IMG/VR virus record: IMGVR_UViG_3300042332_000520
Location: 1 to 53,828 of that record
Source of the DNA: a virus
Strand: one strand, 5' to 3'
DNA length: 53,828 nt
The notes beneath the pieces were generated by a model. The model did not search any database. It worked only from the letters and a program-made list of their open reading frames with translations, and was not told the origin of the DNA. The translations under genes were made by a program, and so were the position numbers. This document shows, piece by piece, positions 19,316 to 47,090 of this stretch (position 1 is its first letter; each line of letters opens with the position of its first letter).

Positions 19316-19836
19316 TAGCTTGCCTTATAATATTCGTTTAACTGTAGTTGATAAACACCCATAATCTCGTCTTTTGTTGGTTGCATAACACCATTAGGAG
19401 CTTGACCTGAGTATCCTTTTTCTAATGCACCAAATCTTCCTTGCGTGAATCCGACTGTAGCCATGTAAGGAACACTGTTGGTGATGTAAACTTTATCACC
19501 TAACTTGTATGTCATCGAATCTTGTTCAGCGTTTGTTTTGATATTAATAGCTTCTCTGTTTTCAGCTCGTTCTGGCACTAATATGCTCGAAGGAAGATTC
19601 ATAGTAACAGTCCAACCACCTTTAGCTGAACCTTCATACGGTAAGAACCAACGTAATCTACTCTTGAGATTATAGTATTTTGCATAAGTCTCAGAATCAC
19701 CAAAAGGAGTATTTTCAATAGCTTTCCATGCAATATGATAAGCAAAAATCTGGACCATTCCTTCGAGTTTCTTAATAGCTTCTTCGTGGAACTTCTTTAG
19801 TTGGTTTTCTAGTTTTGAAGTATCGCACTTAATCAT
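19315..19836 (-). CDS. HK97 gp10-like tail completion/neck protein
   Basis: 173 residues. Helical N-terminus (IKCDTSKLENQLKKFHEEAIKKLEGMVQIFAYHIAWKAIENTPF), then a beta region with VYITNSVPYMATVGFTQ and a C-terminal QAPNGVM, the pattern of gp10-type neck proteins where a tyrosine and Pro-Tyr turn are typical. It joins head and tail. Position between head closure and tail terminator genes agrees. Confidence 0.72.
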   Translation of the reverse strand: MIKCDTSKLENQLKKFHEEAIKKLEGMVQIFAYHIAWKAIENTPFGDSETYAKYYNLKSRLRWFLPYEGSAKGGWTVTMNLPSSILVPERAENREAINIKTNAEQDSMTYKLGDKVYITNSVPYMATVGFTQGRFGALEKGYSGQAPNGVMQPTKDEIMGVYQLQLNEYYKAS

Positions 19837-19837
19837 A

Positions 19838-20197
19838 TTAACCCTTAGTTGCGATAATACGATAAAGAGCTAAATCGTGCTGTGCTCTATGTTCAACAAT
19901 AGAACCAATAGTAAATGTTTCAGAGTTTACTGTAATTTTATCGTTTACAGAAGGTACGAAAGATAAACCAGTATTAACTAAATAGAACATAGCTGATGTT
20001 TTACCGATTAAATTAGGATAGTTATATTGAGTAGCATTAATATGCTTTTTATACATTGTAACAGTATAAGCTGTTTCTGTATTAGTTGTTTGTCCGGTCT
20101 CAACATCGTATTCACTTTCTGTGATTACTGAGTAAACCATTGGTTCACCGTGGGACTCTACTAACCTTTTACTTGACACTAAAAACTGATTAGTCAT
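19838..20197 (-). CDS. head-tail joining (head closure) protein
   Basis: 119 residues, mostly beta strands, with a short charged N-terminus. Order and size match small stopper/head-closure proteins that follow the connector. It lacks a strongly diagnostic motif, so the call rests on synteny: adaptor upstream, gp10-like neck protein downstream. Its start is nine bases from the upstream stop. Confidence 0.55.
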   Translation of the reverse strand: MTNQFLVSSKRLVESHGEPMVYSVITESEYDVETGQTTNTETAYTVTMYKKHINATQYNYPNLIGKTSAMFYLVNTGLSFVPSVNDKITVNSETFTIGSIVEHRAQHDLALYRIIATKG

Positions 20198-20205
20198 TTA
20201 GCACC

Positions 20206-20607
20206 TCAAATTCCGAAAAAGCTATTTGGAAGACTTGGTGAAGTAGAAGGTTGTATAATAATGTTATTGTCAGATGTAGCATTATTTGCTTGCATGTCTG
20301 AAATACTGATACCACCAGCATAACCTAGAAGATTTTGAAGATTTTGATTTAGATCAGGATTCTTAATATACATTTGTAAGGCTTGCATATATTGTTTAGC
20401 AGTGCCAGTACCTTTTACACTAAAGATATCTACTGATTCATCTGAACGCATAGAGAGTTTTAATAAAATACTTTTTGCAGCATCTAAAGCAGCTCTACGA
20501 ATAGACCAATCATTTTTGTCTAGGAAATAACGATATTCAATATCAGACATAATAGGCAAAGTAACATCAGTATCGCCTAATTCCATACGAAGTGCGTGAA
20601 TTGTCAT
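20206..20607 (-). CDS. head-tail connector (adaptor) protein
   Basis: I start at ATG 20607, which has AAGGAA five bases upstream. 133 residues; the N-terminal half is alpha-helical (YRYFLDKNDWSIRRAALDAAKSILLKLSMRSDESVDIFSVKGTGTAKQYMQAL), as in gp6/gp15-type adaptors that dock on the portal. The C-terminal third is Asn/Ser/Pro-rich and probably flexible. It is the first gene after the capsid terminator. Confidence 0.6.
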   Translation of the reverse strand: MTIHALRMELGDTDVTLPIMSDIEYRYFLDKNDWSIRRAALDAAKSILLKLSMRSDESVDIFSVKGTGTAKQYMQALQMYIKNPDLNQNLQNLLGYAGGISISDMQANNATSDNNIIIQPSTSPSLPNSFFGI

Positions 20608-20619
20608 AATGTTTCCTTT

Positions 20620-20633
20620 TGTTATTTCTAACA
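20620..20633 (-). promoter_or_regulatory. GNRA-capped leader hairpin before adaptor gene
   Basis: On the transcript TGTTA-GAAA-TAACA, a perfect 5-bp stem with a GAAA tetraloop immediately upstream of the AAAGGAA ribosome site. Confidence 0.45.
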
Positions 20634-20687
20634 TAAAAACTGCAGAATAACATTCGATCTGTTACAATGCAGTGCTTATGTTAGAAA

Positions 20688-20703
20688 GCCCCCGTGAGGG
20701 GGC
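20688..20703 (-). terminator. terminator after major capsid gene
   Basis: Perfect GCCCCC/GGGGGC stem with a 4-base loop, then TTTCT on the leftward side, starting 11 bases after the capsid stop. The U-run is short, so read-through is likely. Confidence 0.72.
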
Positions 20704-20713
20704 AATCTCAACT

Positions 20714-21730
20714 TTAGTTAGAAGTTGTTAGCTTGACTAGAGCACCGGGACGGCGAACTAGGTTCAAGAAGTTAGATTCAGTTTCAATACTGATTTCTGA
20801 ATCCTTAGGATCACGGTATGTGAATGCATAAGCTTGTTCACCTAGAGTGTTAACGTGTGTGAACTTGTTAGCAGGTGAGAAGTAGCTGATGAACATATCG
20901 TTAGTGCCTGTAGGTAGCATGTAAGCTTCGCCAGCAGGGATTAGAGCTGTACCGTTGAATGAACCACGGTATTCGATGTATGTAACACCACCGTGTACGA
21001 AACGGCGATATACACCAGAACCTAGACGGTTACGTAGTGGCTCTTGGGTGCTAGTGTAATACTTGTAAGCTTCTTTAACAGATGCGTGAGCGATTAACTT
21101 AGCGAAGAAAGTTGGTGAGCAGAGAACGATGATTTCGTTAACTACTTCGCCACTTAGGATGTTGTCCTGAATGTGGGCAATACCTTCTTCAGACTTAGCT
21201 GTTAGGTCAGTTGTGCTTGTACCTAGAACAAAGTCGATTGACTTGCGGGTTACGCCAAAGTCAGTGTAGAAGTTACCAGCTACAGTGCCGTTAGGAGCGT
21301 AGATAGCGCCAGTTGTAAGAGCATAAGCACGAGCAGCTTCTAGAGTTACAGCGTGGTTCATGCGGATACGCTCTAGCTTACGAGCGATAACAGCAGCCTC
21401 AGTTTCAGCCATGTCAGCAGAACCGTAGGCACGTTTGCCTTGAATGTCCTGTGGCTTGATAGCGTCATCTAGAGGGAAGTGAGGGATAGCGAATGAACGT
21501 AGGTTACGTGTATCGTCCTTGTTCATAGTGTTACGAGCGCCACGAACTTGGTCAGTTACTAGACCTAGTGTGCCTTCGCTGGCTTCAACAGTGATAGAAT
21601 GTTGGGAAACAGATTCATCACGGAAAATGCCGAGTTCATTAATTAGACCCCATTTATTAGGAACTAGAAGAAGTTCTTGTGTATAATCAACGAGTTCAAA
21701 TGGTTTTTCAAAGCTACGTACTTGTGCCAT
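20714..21730 (-). CDS. major capsid protein (lambda gpE-like)
   Basis: 338 residues. Recognisable gpE-family features are an N-terminus ending with PNKWGLINELGIF, SITVEASEGTLGLVTDQVRGARNTMNKDDTRNLRSFAIPHFPLDDAIKPQDIQG, a helix AAVIARKLERIRMNHAVTLEAARAYAL, and a C-terminal EAYMLPTG...FSPANKFTHVNTLGEQAYAF. It assembles the icosahedral shell. It sits after the decoration and scaffold genes, as in lambda-like heads, and codon use is more regular than in its neighbours, as expected for a highly expressed gene. Confidence 0.93.
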   Translation of the reverse strand: MAQVRSFEKPFELVDYTQELLLVPNKWGLINELGIFRDESVSQHSITVEASEGTLGLVTDQVRGARNTMNKDDTRNLRSFAIPHFPLDDAIKPQDIQGKRAYGSADMAETEAAVIARKLERIRMNHAVTLEAARAYALTTGAIYAPNGTVAGNFYTDFGVTRKSIDFVLGTSTTDLTAKSEEGIAHIQDNILSGEVVNEIIVLCSPTFFAKLIAHASVKEAYKYYTSTQEPLRNRLGSGVYRRFVHGGVTYIEYRGSFNGTALIPAGEAYMLPTGTNDMFISYFSPANKFTHVNTLGEQAYAFTYRDPKDSEISIETESNFLNLVRRPGALVKLTTSN

Positions 21731-38837: not shown

Positions 38838-38923
38838 TGGTGGGCACTCTAGGACTCGAACCTAGTAGTCTTTTGGACGGCGGATTTACAGTCCGCTGCA
38901 GTCACCAGTGCTGCTCAATACCC
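38838..38923 (-). tRNA. tRNA-Tyr (GUA)
   Basis: Anticodon stem GCGGA/TCCGC with loop CTGTAAA, giving GTA. It has the long variable arm expected of bacterial tRNA-Tyr and encoded ACCA. The acceptor has two wobble pairs. Confidence 0.9.
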
Positions 38924-38954
38924 TTTGTTGTTTGCTATTTGCGAATAGCGAATA

Positions 38955-39032
38955 TGGTCCGTAATGAATGATTCGAACATTCGATATCTCGGCCCCAAAC
39001 CGAGTGACTTAACCAGACTAGCCTAATTACGG
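38955..39032 (-). tRNA. tRNA-Pro (UGG)
   Basis: Acceptor CCGTAAT/ATTACGG with ACCA; anticodon stem CTCGG/CCGAG with loop TTTGGGG, anticodon TGG. Standard T-loop GTTCGAATC. Confidence 0.92.
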
Positions 39033-39041
39033 ATGTTAAGA

Positions 39042-39117
39042 TGGCGTATCCCGTAGGAGTCGAACCCACAACCTGCGGATTTGGAATCCGCCACTCTGCC
39101 AGTTGAGTTAGAGATAC
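39042..39117 (-). tRNA. tRNA-Trp (CCA)
   Basis: Acceptor GTATCTC/GGGATAC with GCCA; anticodon stem GCGGA/TCCGC with loop TTCCAAA, anticodon CCA. Serves the single UGG codon. Confidence 0.92.
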
Positions 39118-39123
39118 ATTTGT

Positions 39124-39201
39124 TGGCAGAGGATACTGGATTCGAACCAATGATACTAATTTCAAAGACTAGTGCTTTAGGCCAGACTAAGCTAATCCCC
39201 A
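39124..39201 (-). tRNA. tRNA-Gln (UUG)
   Basis: Anticodon stem CTAGT/ATTAG with loop CTTTGAA, anticodon TTG. The acceptor begins with T and has a weak first pair, as is characteristic of tRNA-Gln. Encoded GCCA. Confidence 0.85.
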
Positions 39202-39207
39202 ACAAAC

Positions 39208-39299
39208 TGGCGGAAGATACAGGATTCGAACCTGTGGGACAGCTTTCGCCGCCCTATTGTTTAGCAAACAACCGCAATCGGCCTCTCTGCCAATCTTCC
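39208..39299 (-). tRNA. tRNA-Ser (GCU)
   Basis: Acceptor GGAAGAT/ATCTTCC, long variable arm, anticodon loop TTGCTAA (anticodon GCT), encoded GCCA. Reads AGU/AGC; with the UGA isoacceptor it covers serine codons in two boxes. Confidence 0.9.
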
Positions 39300-39304
39300 T
39301 TATT

Positions 39305-39379
39305 TGGCTGGCAAAAGTGGGATCGAACCACTGACCGGACGGTTAACAGCCGTCTGCTCTACCTCTGAGCTATATGCCA
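39305..39379 (-). tRNA. tRNA-Asn (GUU)
   Basis: D-arm AGCTCAGAGGTAGAGC is standard; anticodon stem GACGG/CCGTC with loop CTGTTAA, anticodon GTT; encoded GCCA. One acceptor mismatch. Confidence 0.92.
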
Positions 39380-39560
39380 AAATTCTTCCAACTGTTACCT
39401 TATGCTCTTTCCGTTGGCGATTGAGCAGCCGAACTTTTTACGTAGTTGACGAACCCTTAGGGACGTACAGCGGAATACACGTTTATTGGAAAGTTCCGAT
39501 AGCACCCATCGTCACTAACAACCGTTGAATGGATGATCCTACCAGTTCCATTATTTGCCT
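39380..39560 (-). other. spacer inside the tRNA cluster
   Basis: About 180 bases with no T-loop, no acceptor pair and no open frame of interest. I see nothing that supports a further tRNA. Confidence 0.45.
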
Positions 39561-39636
39561 TGGTGACCTCACCGGGATTCGAACCCGGCTTATCTGCGTG
39601 AAAGGCAGATGTTCTAACCTACTAAACTACAAGGTC
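39561..39636 (-). tRNA. tRNA-Glu (UUC)
   Basis: Acceptor GACCTTG/TGAGGTC with ACCA; anticodon stem TCTGC/GCAGA with loop CTTTCAC, anticodon TTC; T-arm CCGGG TTCGAAT CCCGG. Confidence 0.93.
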
Positions 39637-39644
39637 ATATTTAT

Positions 39645-39728
39645 TGGTGCTTCAGGAGAGACTCGAACTCTCAATCCTCTCGGCATTGGTTTCTAAGACC
39701 AACGTGTATACCATTCCACCACCGAAGC
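39645..39728 (-). tRNA. tRNA-Leu (UAG)
   Basis: Acceptor GCTTCGG/CTGAAGC with ACCA, long variable arm, anticodon stem TTGGT/ACCAA with loop CTTAGAA, anticodon TAG. Reads CUN. Confidence 0.93.
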
Positions 39729-39730
39729 TT

Positions 39731-39806
39731 TGGTACGGAAAACTGGACTTGAACCAGTGACCTGTCGCTTATCAAGCGAATGCTCTACCAACTGAGCTAT
39801 ATCCGT
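39731..39806 (-). tRNA. tRNA-Ile (GAU)
   Basis: D-arm AGCTCAGTTGGTAGAGC; anticodon stem TTCGC/GCGAC (first pair T-C unpaired) with loop TTGATAA, anticodon GAT; encoded ACCA. Confidence 0.92.
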
Positions 39807-39819
39807 ATTATATTGTATT

Positions 39820-39904
39820 TGGTGCTGAAGGTGAGACTCGAACTCACGTAAGATTTCTCTGACGGCTTACAAAACCGTTGCAATTGCCGCTATGCGACTT
39901 CAGC
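39820..39904 (-). tRNA. tRNA with UGU (Thr) anticodon and a long variable arm
   Basis: Acceptor GCTGAAG/CTTCAGC with ACCA; anticodon stem ACGGT/GCCGT with loop TTTGTAA, anticodon TGT. Between anticodon and T stems lie 14 bases with an AGA-GAAA-TCT stem-loop, so the molecule is type II in shape, 85 nt. The pairs G1-C72 and C2-G71 with G35 and U36 agree with known ThrRS identity elements, so it is probably charged with threonine, but a threonine tRNA with a helical variable arm is unusual. Confidence 0.6.
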
Positions 39905-45107: not shown

Positions 45108-45335
45108 TTAACGGGCGAATTTAACGGCGAATTGTCTCAGCTGGGCGGTGCATGCGTTGCGGATTTTCTGGTGGTGCTGACTGGTGTTGTAGTGCATCAC
45201 CTGAGTGCCTGCCTTAGTGGTTCCCAGATACTGGCCTTTCACGCCGTCCAGCTGCTGCACCCATTGGCCCGGTTTTGTATTGGCGGGGATATCGGCGAAG
45301 GTGGAAACCTGAATTGTTTTGGTGTACTTTTGCAT
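45108..45335 (-). CDS. small hypothetical protein
   Basis: 75 residues from ATG 45335, preceded by AAAGG inside a copy of the GAAAACAAAGGT-like motif; the longer frame to 45473 runs through another gene and the motif. Reads MQKYTKTIQVSTFADIPANTKPGQWVQQLDGVKGQYLGTTKAG, a small beta-rich protein with a basic C-terminus. Function unknown. Confidence 0.5.
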   Translation of the reverse strand: MQKYTKTIQVSTFADIPANTKPGQWVQQLDGVKGQYLGTTKAGTQVMHYNTSQHHQKIRNACTAQLRQFAVKFAR

Positions 45336-45598: not shown

Positions 45599-45619
45599 TT
45601 TGTGAACCTTTGTTTTCAA

Positions 45620-45668
45620 GAGTTTTGGGGTAGTGTATACCTTTGTTCGCATACACTATAGAAAACTC
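45620..45668. repeat. long hairpin with repeat motif in its loop
   Basis: Outer arms GAGTTTT/AAAACTC and inner arms TAGTGTAT (45631-45638) with ATACACTA (45651-45658) enclose a 12-base loop ACCTTTGTTCGC; its complement holds GAACAAAGGT, the repeat core. Could fold in RNA or single-stranded DNA. Confidence 0.65.
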
Positions 45669-45901
45669 TCAATTTTTAATGAACTGTGAACCTTTGTTTT
45701 AAGGTTCTGAGGGCCAGTCCGATCACTGCCGCCATGTGTTCAATTATATCGGGTAATGTGTTGTTTTGACGCAACAATGCATTTATTTTTATAGGATAAA
45801 CCCTATGTAAACTTCTGTTTTCAATTTTGGGTTATTTCCTGCCTTATATAGAGGAAAGTGAACCCTGCATTTTGAGAACTTCTGTTTTCAACTGTAAAAA
45901 G

Positions 45902-45970
45902 TTATCCACATGTTATTAGTCTTATATAAGAGTTAAAATTGTGGATAACTATAACTAGTGCTGTGGATAA
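45902..45970. repeat. three DnaA boxes around an AT-rich stretch
   Basis: TTATCCACA at 45902-45910, its complement TGTGGATAA at 45940-45948 and again at 45962-45970. The first two, in opposite orientation, flank 29 bases that are strongly AT-rich and include CTTATATAAG. Confidence 0.8.
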
Positions 45971-46171
45971 CTTTTTCTGAGGGGGTAGGTGCTGCGGGTG
46001 CTTTGTGGGCCTTGCTGGTCGTTCTAGAGCGTTCTAGCGGCATGTCTTTTCATACAGTATTCATTTTGGGCGTGTAATACTGGCACGGTTTTTGCGGTTG
46101 TAAACTTTTGTTTCTCATTTATTATTGCAAACAAAATAGTTACATTTCCAGCTGATGCATAAATTGTAACA

Positions 46172-46312
46172 AAATGTAACAGTGTCAGCTTCATGTAAGC
46201 TTCGCATGCTAGGTCCAGGATGTAGTACTTTTGTTTCTTATAGCATTTTGTGAACCAGAGTATTACATTGTAAGGTTTGCGTAAATTGTAACCAATTGTA
46301 ACAAATTGTAAC
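46172..46312. repeat. AATTGTAAC repeats
   Basis: AATTGTAAC at 46172, 46284, 46294 and 46304, with a variant at 46182. The last three are exactly 10 bp apart. They lie between inverted motif copies and next to the DnaA boxes. Confidence 0.75.
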
Positions 46313-46406
46313 TGTAAGCTTCTTGTAAGGTTTCTGTGCTAATACTGGGTTTTCATACAGTAGTACCTTGGTTTCTCATATGGATTTGAAAACAAAATAG
46401 TTACAT

Positions 46407-46490
46407 TGTGGATAAACCTGTGGATAACCTGTGGATATGTGGATAACCCTGTGCATAACCTGTGGATAACTCGGGATAACCTGTGGATAA
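46407..46490 (+). repeat. tandem DnaA-box array, candidate origin or DnaA titration site
   Basis: Six exact TTATNCACA boxes (reverse-oriented) start at 46407, 46419, 46438, 46450, 46461 and 46482; degenerate boxes lie at 46430 and 46471. Spacing is mostly 10-12 bp, all in one orientation. Dense helically phased DnaA sites are typical of oriC, plasmid oris or datA-like loci. Confidence 0.85.
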
Positions 46491-46614
46491 CTCAAAATGA
46501 GTACTTTGGTTCTCAAATCGCCCAAAATCCATTAGTTTTGAGCATTTTATTTCCGTAGACCCCCAAGGGTTTTTTAGTCAAAAATTTTCTGCACCTCCCT
46601 ATGGGTTTTTAAAA

Positions 46615-46650
46615 CAGAAAAACCACCAAGGATTTCTCCAAGGTGGTCTA
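46615..46650 (-). terminator. terminator after the 46668 gene
   Basis: ACCACC/GGTGGT arms (46622-46627 with 46642-46647), loop with an inner pair, and TTTTT on the minus strand. Confidence 0.78.
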
Positions 46651-46667
46651 GGGGTTTTTAGTTCAGT

Positions 46668-47090
46668 TTAATTCTTGAATTGATAGGGTTTATTCCAACG
46701 ACCAAGACGCATACTAACATAATAAGCGCAATGGAAATAATCAGTCATGAGATCAGATTTATCCCAATGATCAACCATCATGATAGCCTTGGCTTTCTCC
46801 AGATACTCCAGAGCTTTACCTTCAAAAGAGCTGTCAAGAAAATAGTGATTGATATTGATATTGCCAGTTTCTTTTGCATAGCTGATTACAGCCTCAATAT
46901 CACGCAATGAACGCTTAGTTGTAATGGTATTAGCAAAGCTTTGAATGAAGTCAATACTGCCTTCTGAAACGGTCAAGCACAGTTGACTACCACCTTTACC
47001 TGACAATGTAGCCTTAACACCGTACTCTTTGTTCAAAGCCTTCAAAGCAATACGAGCTTTGTTGATGGTTTCTTCGGTAACGTAAGCCAT
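46668..47090 (-). CDS. conserved phage hypothetical (LPD29-like)
   Basis: Start ATG 47090 with AAGGAA six bases upstream. 140 residues. AYVTEETINKARIALKALNKEYGVKATLSGKGGSQLCLTVSEGSIDFI and HWDKSDLMTDYFHCAYYVSMRLGRWNKPY resemble a polyvalent-protein-associated domain found in phages. Position: last in the leftward early-type gene run. Function unknown. Confidence 0.6.
   Translation of the reverse strand: MAYVTEETINKARIALKALNKEYGVKATLSGKGGSQLCLTVSEGSIDFIQSFANTITTKRSLRDIEAVISYAKETGNININHYFLDSSFEGKALEYLEKAKAIMMVDHWDKSDLMTDYFHCAYYVSMRLGRWNKPYQFKN

Follow-up and report, generated by a model that had tools for sequence, protein, structure and literature searches.

A conserved DnaA-box element, and a tandem DnaA-box array beside it, in a non-coding gap of a freshwater phage genome

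The locus considered here raises the question of what a dense cluster of apparent DnaA boxes does in the genome of a phage. The window, i.e. the whole stretch of DNA analysed (53,828 bp), comes from IMG/VR as a virus record and, judging by synteny, corresponds to ~70% of a phage genome of 76-84 kb resembling that of Limnohabitans phage DC31. On the basis of DC31 and of phage P26059A, its host is probably a Limnohabitans-like member of the Comamonadaceae. Record PQ492658.1 labels DC31 as a Pakpunavirus; the paper on DC31 gives a tail of 203 nm and little similarity to known phages. The window also has a cluster of ten tRNA genes (38838-39904, minus strand), where DC31 has five at the syntenic place; tRNAs were the sole matches in an Rfam search. 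The boxes form two clusters within one gap, which, with its flanking genes, is organized thus:

45111-45335, minus strand: phrog_21585-like gene (75 aa), a conserved neighbour transcribed away from the element
45653-46667, no strand: non-coding gap with both box clusters, syntenic with DC31 19820-20750
45898-45989, minus strand: ~90-bp DnaA-box core element (from alignment with DC31, P26059A and relatives L225-L232, and from IMG/VR matches)
45902-45910, plus strand: opposed DnaA box TTATCCACA of the core (motif scan)
45918-45933, no strand: AT-rich palindrome AGTCTTATATAAGAGT between the opposed boxes (sequence and alignment)
45940-45948, minus strand: DnaA box TTATCCACA of the core (motif scan)
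45962-45970, minus strand: DnaA box TTATCCACA of the core (motif scan)
46407-46490, minus strand: tandem array of six exact boxes and two degenerate units (motif scan, repeat finder, simulation)
46671-47090, minus strand: phrog_10415-like gene at the gap border, used as probe for relatives

The array drew attention in a sequence-only reading of the window, which described six exact and two degenerate boxes in 84 bp, all in one orientation, with starts mostly 10-12 bp apart; coordinates, strand and simulation agree with that description. The exact boxes (TTATNCACA) start, on the minus strand, at 46407, 46419, 46438, 46450 (TTATGCACA), 46461 and 46482, and the degenerate units are a box with one mismatch at 46430 and one with two mismatches at 46471-46479 (TCGGGATAA on the plus strand). 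The start-to-start spacings along the array are 12, 11, 8, 12, 11, 10 and 11 bp, and Tandem Repeats Finder gives an 11-bp period with 7.9 copies. The null for clustering was a set of 300 first-order Markov simulations of the window, in which the maximum per 84 bp was two exact boxes (reached twice) and otherwise zero or one, compared with the six observed. Boxes with at most one mismatch are not in excess over the entire window (68 versus 82 in shuffles); the signal therefore lies in their clustering. Chance clustering was considered and is ruled out by the Markov simulation together with a reversed-motif control.

The same reading held that such an array is unusual in tailed-phage intergenic DNA, which is not borne out. 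Tandem arrays, taken as three TTATCCACA separated by 1-30 bp, are present in at least 120 IMG/VR stretches, against nine for the reversed motif in the same pattern in the completed IMG/VR scan, and an idealised array matches 100 named-phage records versus six plasmid records. The named phages span T5-like, T7-like, Lactococcus, Arthrobacter and microvirus genomes; in Salmonella phage oldekolle, for example, it occupies a non-coding gap next to the pre-early genes A2 and A1. At 105 of 116 sampled array loci the array is outside ORFs of at least 80 aa, while 67% of random stretches from array loci fall inside such an ORF. Successive spacings in the IMG/VR arrays peak at 11-12, 21-23 and 32-34 bp, as expected for boxes on one helix face; duplication of an 11-bp unit would look alike. 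One microvirus (Microvirus mar31) has, at ~1950-2075, approximately eleven head-to-tail TTTTCCACAGG units, intergenic and resembling an array of variant DnaA boxes.

The conserved feature of the gap is, however, the second cluster and not the tandem array. Three further exact boxes had been placed ~500 bp from the array; they are present, at 437-505 bp, but the first of them points the other way, a detail that had passed without mention. The earlier suggestion that the array be sought in related phages gave a divided outcome, in that the six-box array is not conserved, but the three-box element ~430 bp away from it is. Relatives were found via the gene at 46671-47090 and include L225-L232, at 49-67% identity; all eight of these have a box cluster in the syntenic gap; the boxes of L227 are degenerate, and its element was found with a looser pattern only. 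Same-strand boxes number at most 3-4 per run in the relatives, and none of the 129 element loci has a same-strand run denser than the window's array; this count of loci, like other locus counts, is an upper bound, as some loci are one contig fetched twice. The six-box array is best seen as a lineage-specific expansion, and the conserved ~90-bp element is the more important feature.

Alignment of the window with DC31, P26059A and six of L225-L232 defines a common block, TACCCC..GAAAAAGTTATCCACA, 13 bp, TTATCCACA, AATTTNNACTCTTATATAAGACTGATAACC and TGTGGATAACT, which in the window corresponds to the minus-strand reading of the second cluster. The order of the core is TACCCC..AAAAA, a box, 13 bp, a second box, the AT-rich palindrome and an opposed box; in short, a pair of boxes is followed by the palindrome AGTCTTATATAAGACT and then by an opposed third box. 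A search with the palindrome and third-box pattern gave matches in at least 119 IMG/VR stretches, which belong to several phage groups and share one consensus, with gap lengths of 4, 7, 8 or 9 bp; extra boxes occur at near-helical distances of ~22, 32, 41, 52 and 62 bp, measured from the third box. The element is intergenic. Relative to the palindrome, conservation extends from about -100 to +40 and no further, and exact boxes number 3.4 per 300 bp around the element versus 0.013 elsewhere (the pattern itself requires one box). The loci fall into six main groups by protein content, with mean GC of 0.38-0.52 and few proteins in common within the stretches compared. Many relatives have only two or three exact boxes. 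A small GC-rich group (L320, L321, L377, L405 and L414) has the palindrome and two boxes with a 4-bp gap, without the left half of the element. Iteron-like CTTATATAAG repeats, spaced by multiples of 16 bp, are found in L225 (10613-10741), L227 (10754-10850) and L230 (10799-10879); such repeats adjoin the element in several relatives and are absent from the window.

Exactly one element is present in each of the eight records of 70-84 kb, including the isolates DC31 and P26059A; a forward and a reverse match in these records together make up a single site. Most of the records have their TTATCCACA sites concentrated there. In the named phages, a match over most of the element is confined to DC31 (94.9%) and P26059A (83.1%). 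The phrog_21585-like gene lies within 1.7 kb of the element in 52 of the 129 loci, and all 59 copies of the gene, at 95-1676 bp, are transcribed away from it. The orientation of the element relative to that gene is, by contrast, variable, with 47 cases facing in one direction and 12, including the window, in the opposite direction (the orientation score is weak in a few loci). Such inversion is tolerated by an origin or a binding site, but not by a simple directional promoter. Mean column identity in the neighbouring small protein is 35%, while conservation of the element is confined to its block, and the predicted structure of the protein (mean pLDDT 80) gave no significant PDB match. A AAAACAAAGGTTCAC-like motif recurs on the minus strand of the window at 45615, 45699, 45820, 45887 and 46113, always in one direction; by the pattern used it is confined to the gap, it occurs also in relatives, and it is a possible promoter or operator.

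The element was absent from all 274 sampled genomes of the presumed host's class and all 121 of its family, and 11 Limnohabitans genomes have isolated box pairs and no tandem array; the idea of a recently captured host oriC is, in view of both results, unsupported. The motif GRDHTTVLHA of the box-binding domain is present in DnaA of 11 of 12 Limnohabitans genomes, and in the presumed host DnaA boxes lie upstream of dnaB and other genes. The rpmH-dnaA gap was considered as the host oriC and set aside, having one box, the cluster of two or three boxes upstream of minC being a better candidate. In Limnohabitans L301, L302 and L303 these minC-upstream boxes are perfect and have near them a trio-like CTACTAC and an AT-rich stretch, making the region a candidate chromosomal oriC away from dnaA.

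As judged from their sequence and arrangement, the boxes are DnaA boxes in a non-coding gap. That they capture host DnaA, as had been proposed, is plausible and is the natural reading fitting the conservation; the earlier proposal was bound up with the six-box array, however, which is not the conserved part. On the sequence evidence we consider, with confidence that is about evenly balanced, that the gap at 45653-46667 has within it a DnaA-capture site most likely acting as a phage replication origin or origin enhancer. A broader proposal, offered more tentatively, is that an undescribed, orientation-independent ~90-bp DnaA-capture element may be the origin of a large and diverse assemblage of lytic freshwater phages, such that phages with their own replisome would still rely on the host initiator. 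Host DnaA would bind the high-affinity boxes of the element and then extend cooperatively along the helically phased boxes; its assembly could strain, open or mark the AT-rich palindrome, which, once opened, would admit the replisome for phage replication. The six-box array may add DnaA binding and, at phage copy number, may also draw DnaA off the host chromosome.

The usual view is that tailed phages equipped with a primase-helicase and polymerase of their own initiate without DnaA, and it counts against the origin reading that DnaA is not a necessity for a phage with such a primase-helicase. The genes of DC31 include those for a primase-helicase, a DNA polymerase, an exonuclease and a ligase; the nine phage records searched yielded neither a DnaA DNA-binding domain nor a DnaC-like loader, and no phage initiator or Rep initiator was recognised in gene searches. 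The GC-skew minimum of DC31 is at 35.1 kb, away from the element, though its skew follows gene direction and was uninformative. A DnaA-trio tract was not recognised by eye beside the element; the likely host oriC shows one.

Titration, in which the boxes are a decoy that takes DnaA from the host oriC, so that host initiation stops and resources pass to the phage, is rather unlikely. Consistent with it, one phage genome presents eight TTATCCACA in two clusters, against 12-19 for the entire genome of a Limnohabitans (2.9-3.9 Mb; six genomes counted), arrays recur in unrelated phages, and the window's array is an expansion within its family. A sponge, however, needs number and not a fixed ~90-bp architecture, many relatives manage with their two or three exact boxes, and the AT-rich palindrome is given no role. 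The single copy, the fixed architecture and the orientation-independence together favour an origin-like site over a mere sponge.

Two other explanations concern what reads the boxes, and to what end. That the operon starting at the phrog_21585-like gene is controlled by DnaA, by itself or together with a phage factor, is unlikely: the constant direction of that gene in 59 of 59 copies, the repeated one-direction AAAACAAAGGTTCAC-like motifs and the precedent of dnaB and other box-preceded genes in the presumed host are what such control would lead one to expect, but the element is inverted in 12 of the 59, the window included, and the gap has no more sigma-70-like promoters than expected by chance. 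It is very unlikely that the TTATNCACA and CTTATATAAG repeats are iterons read by a phage-encoded protein and not by DnaA. These phages have many genes without known function and CTTATATAAG is repeated in iteron-like fashion in several relatives, but the box is the canonical DnaA consensus, arrayed in phages of unrelated hosts, and the gene searches brought no phage initiator to light. Titration and transcriptional control could coexist.

No earlier description of the element or of such phage arrays was found in the open-access papers searched, and the papers on DC31 and P26059A make no mention of DnaA or an origin. The presence of one DnaA-box element per genome in many lytic phages makes use or disabling of the host initiator testable, and isolated phage-host systems exist, i.e. 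DC31 on Limnohabitans sp. DCL3 and P26059A on Curvibacter. The element is a non-coding marker for these freshwater phages, and DnaA-box arrays merit annotation in phage genomes.

Among known systems, datA-type titration loci have several DnaA boxes in a short intergenic stretch. The element shares with datA its multiple boxes in short intergenic DNA, but is phage-borne and differs in box number and layout. The iteron origins of plasmids and plasmid-prophages, e.g. P1 oriR, RK2 and pSC101, have DnaA boxes by short AT-containing repeats, and the element resembles them in this juxtaposition; it differs in that the window phage has no recognised Rep initiator, and its relative DC31 has replication proteins of its own. 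The injection-stop-signal region of T5 is non-coding, lies near the pre-early genes and is described as having repeats, palindromes and DnaA boxes (PMC13250531). The likeness is that of a non-coding DnaA-box region, with an array also in Salmonella phage oldekolle, but T5-like phages are unrelated to the window phage and their stop signal is linked to two-step DNA entry. The T5-type context (A1/A2, terminal repeat) is replaced in the window by phrog_21585- and phrog_10415-like neighbours, and T5-like phages gave no match to the consensus element. For Pseudomonas phage vB_PseuGesM_254, a putative origin with DnaA boxes and AT repeats was predicted with Ori-Finder in a single genome (PMC11512268); its likeness to the element lies in these features. 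The element differs from bacterial oriC in being phage-borne, in its absence from the sampled host-group genomes and in having no DnaA-trio recognised by eye, but it shares with oriC clustered high-affinity boxes, helical spacing, AT-rich DNA and a single occurrence per replicon.
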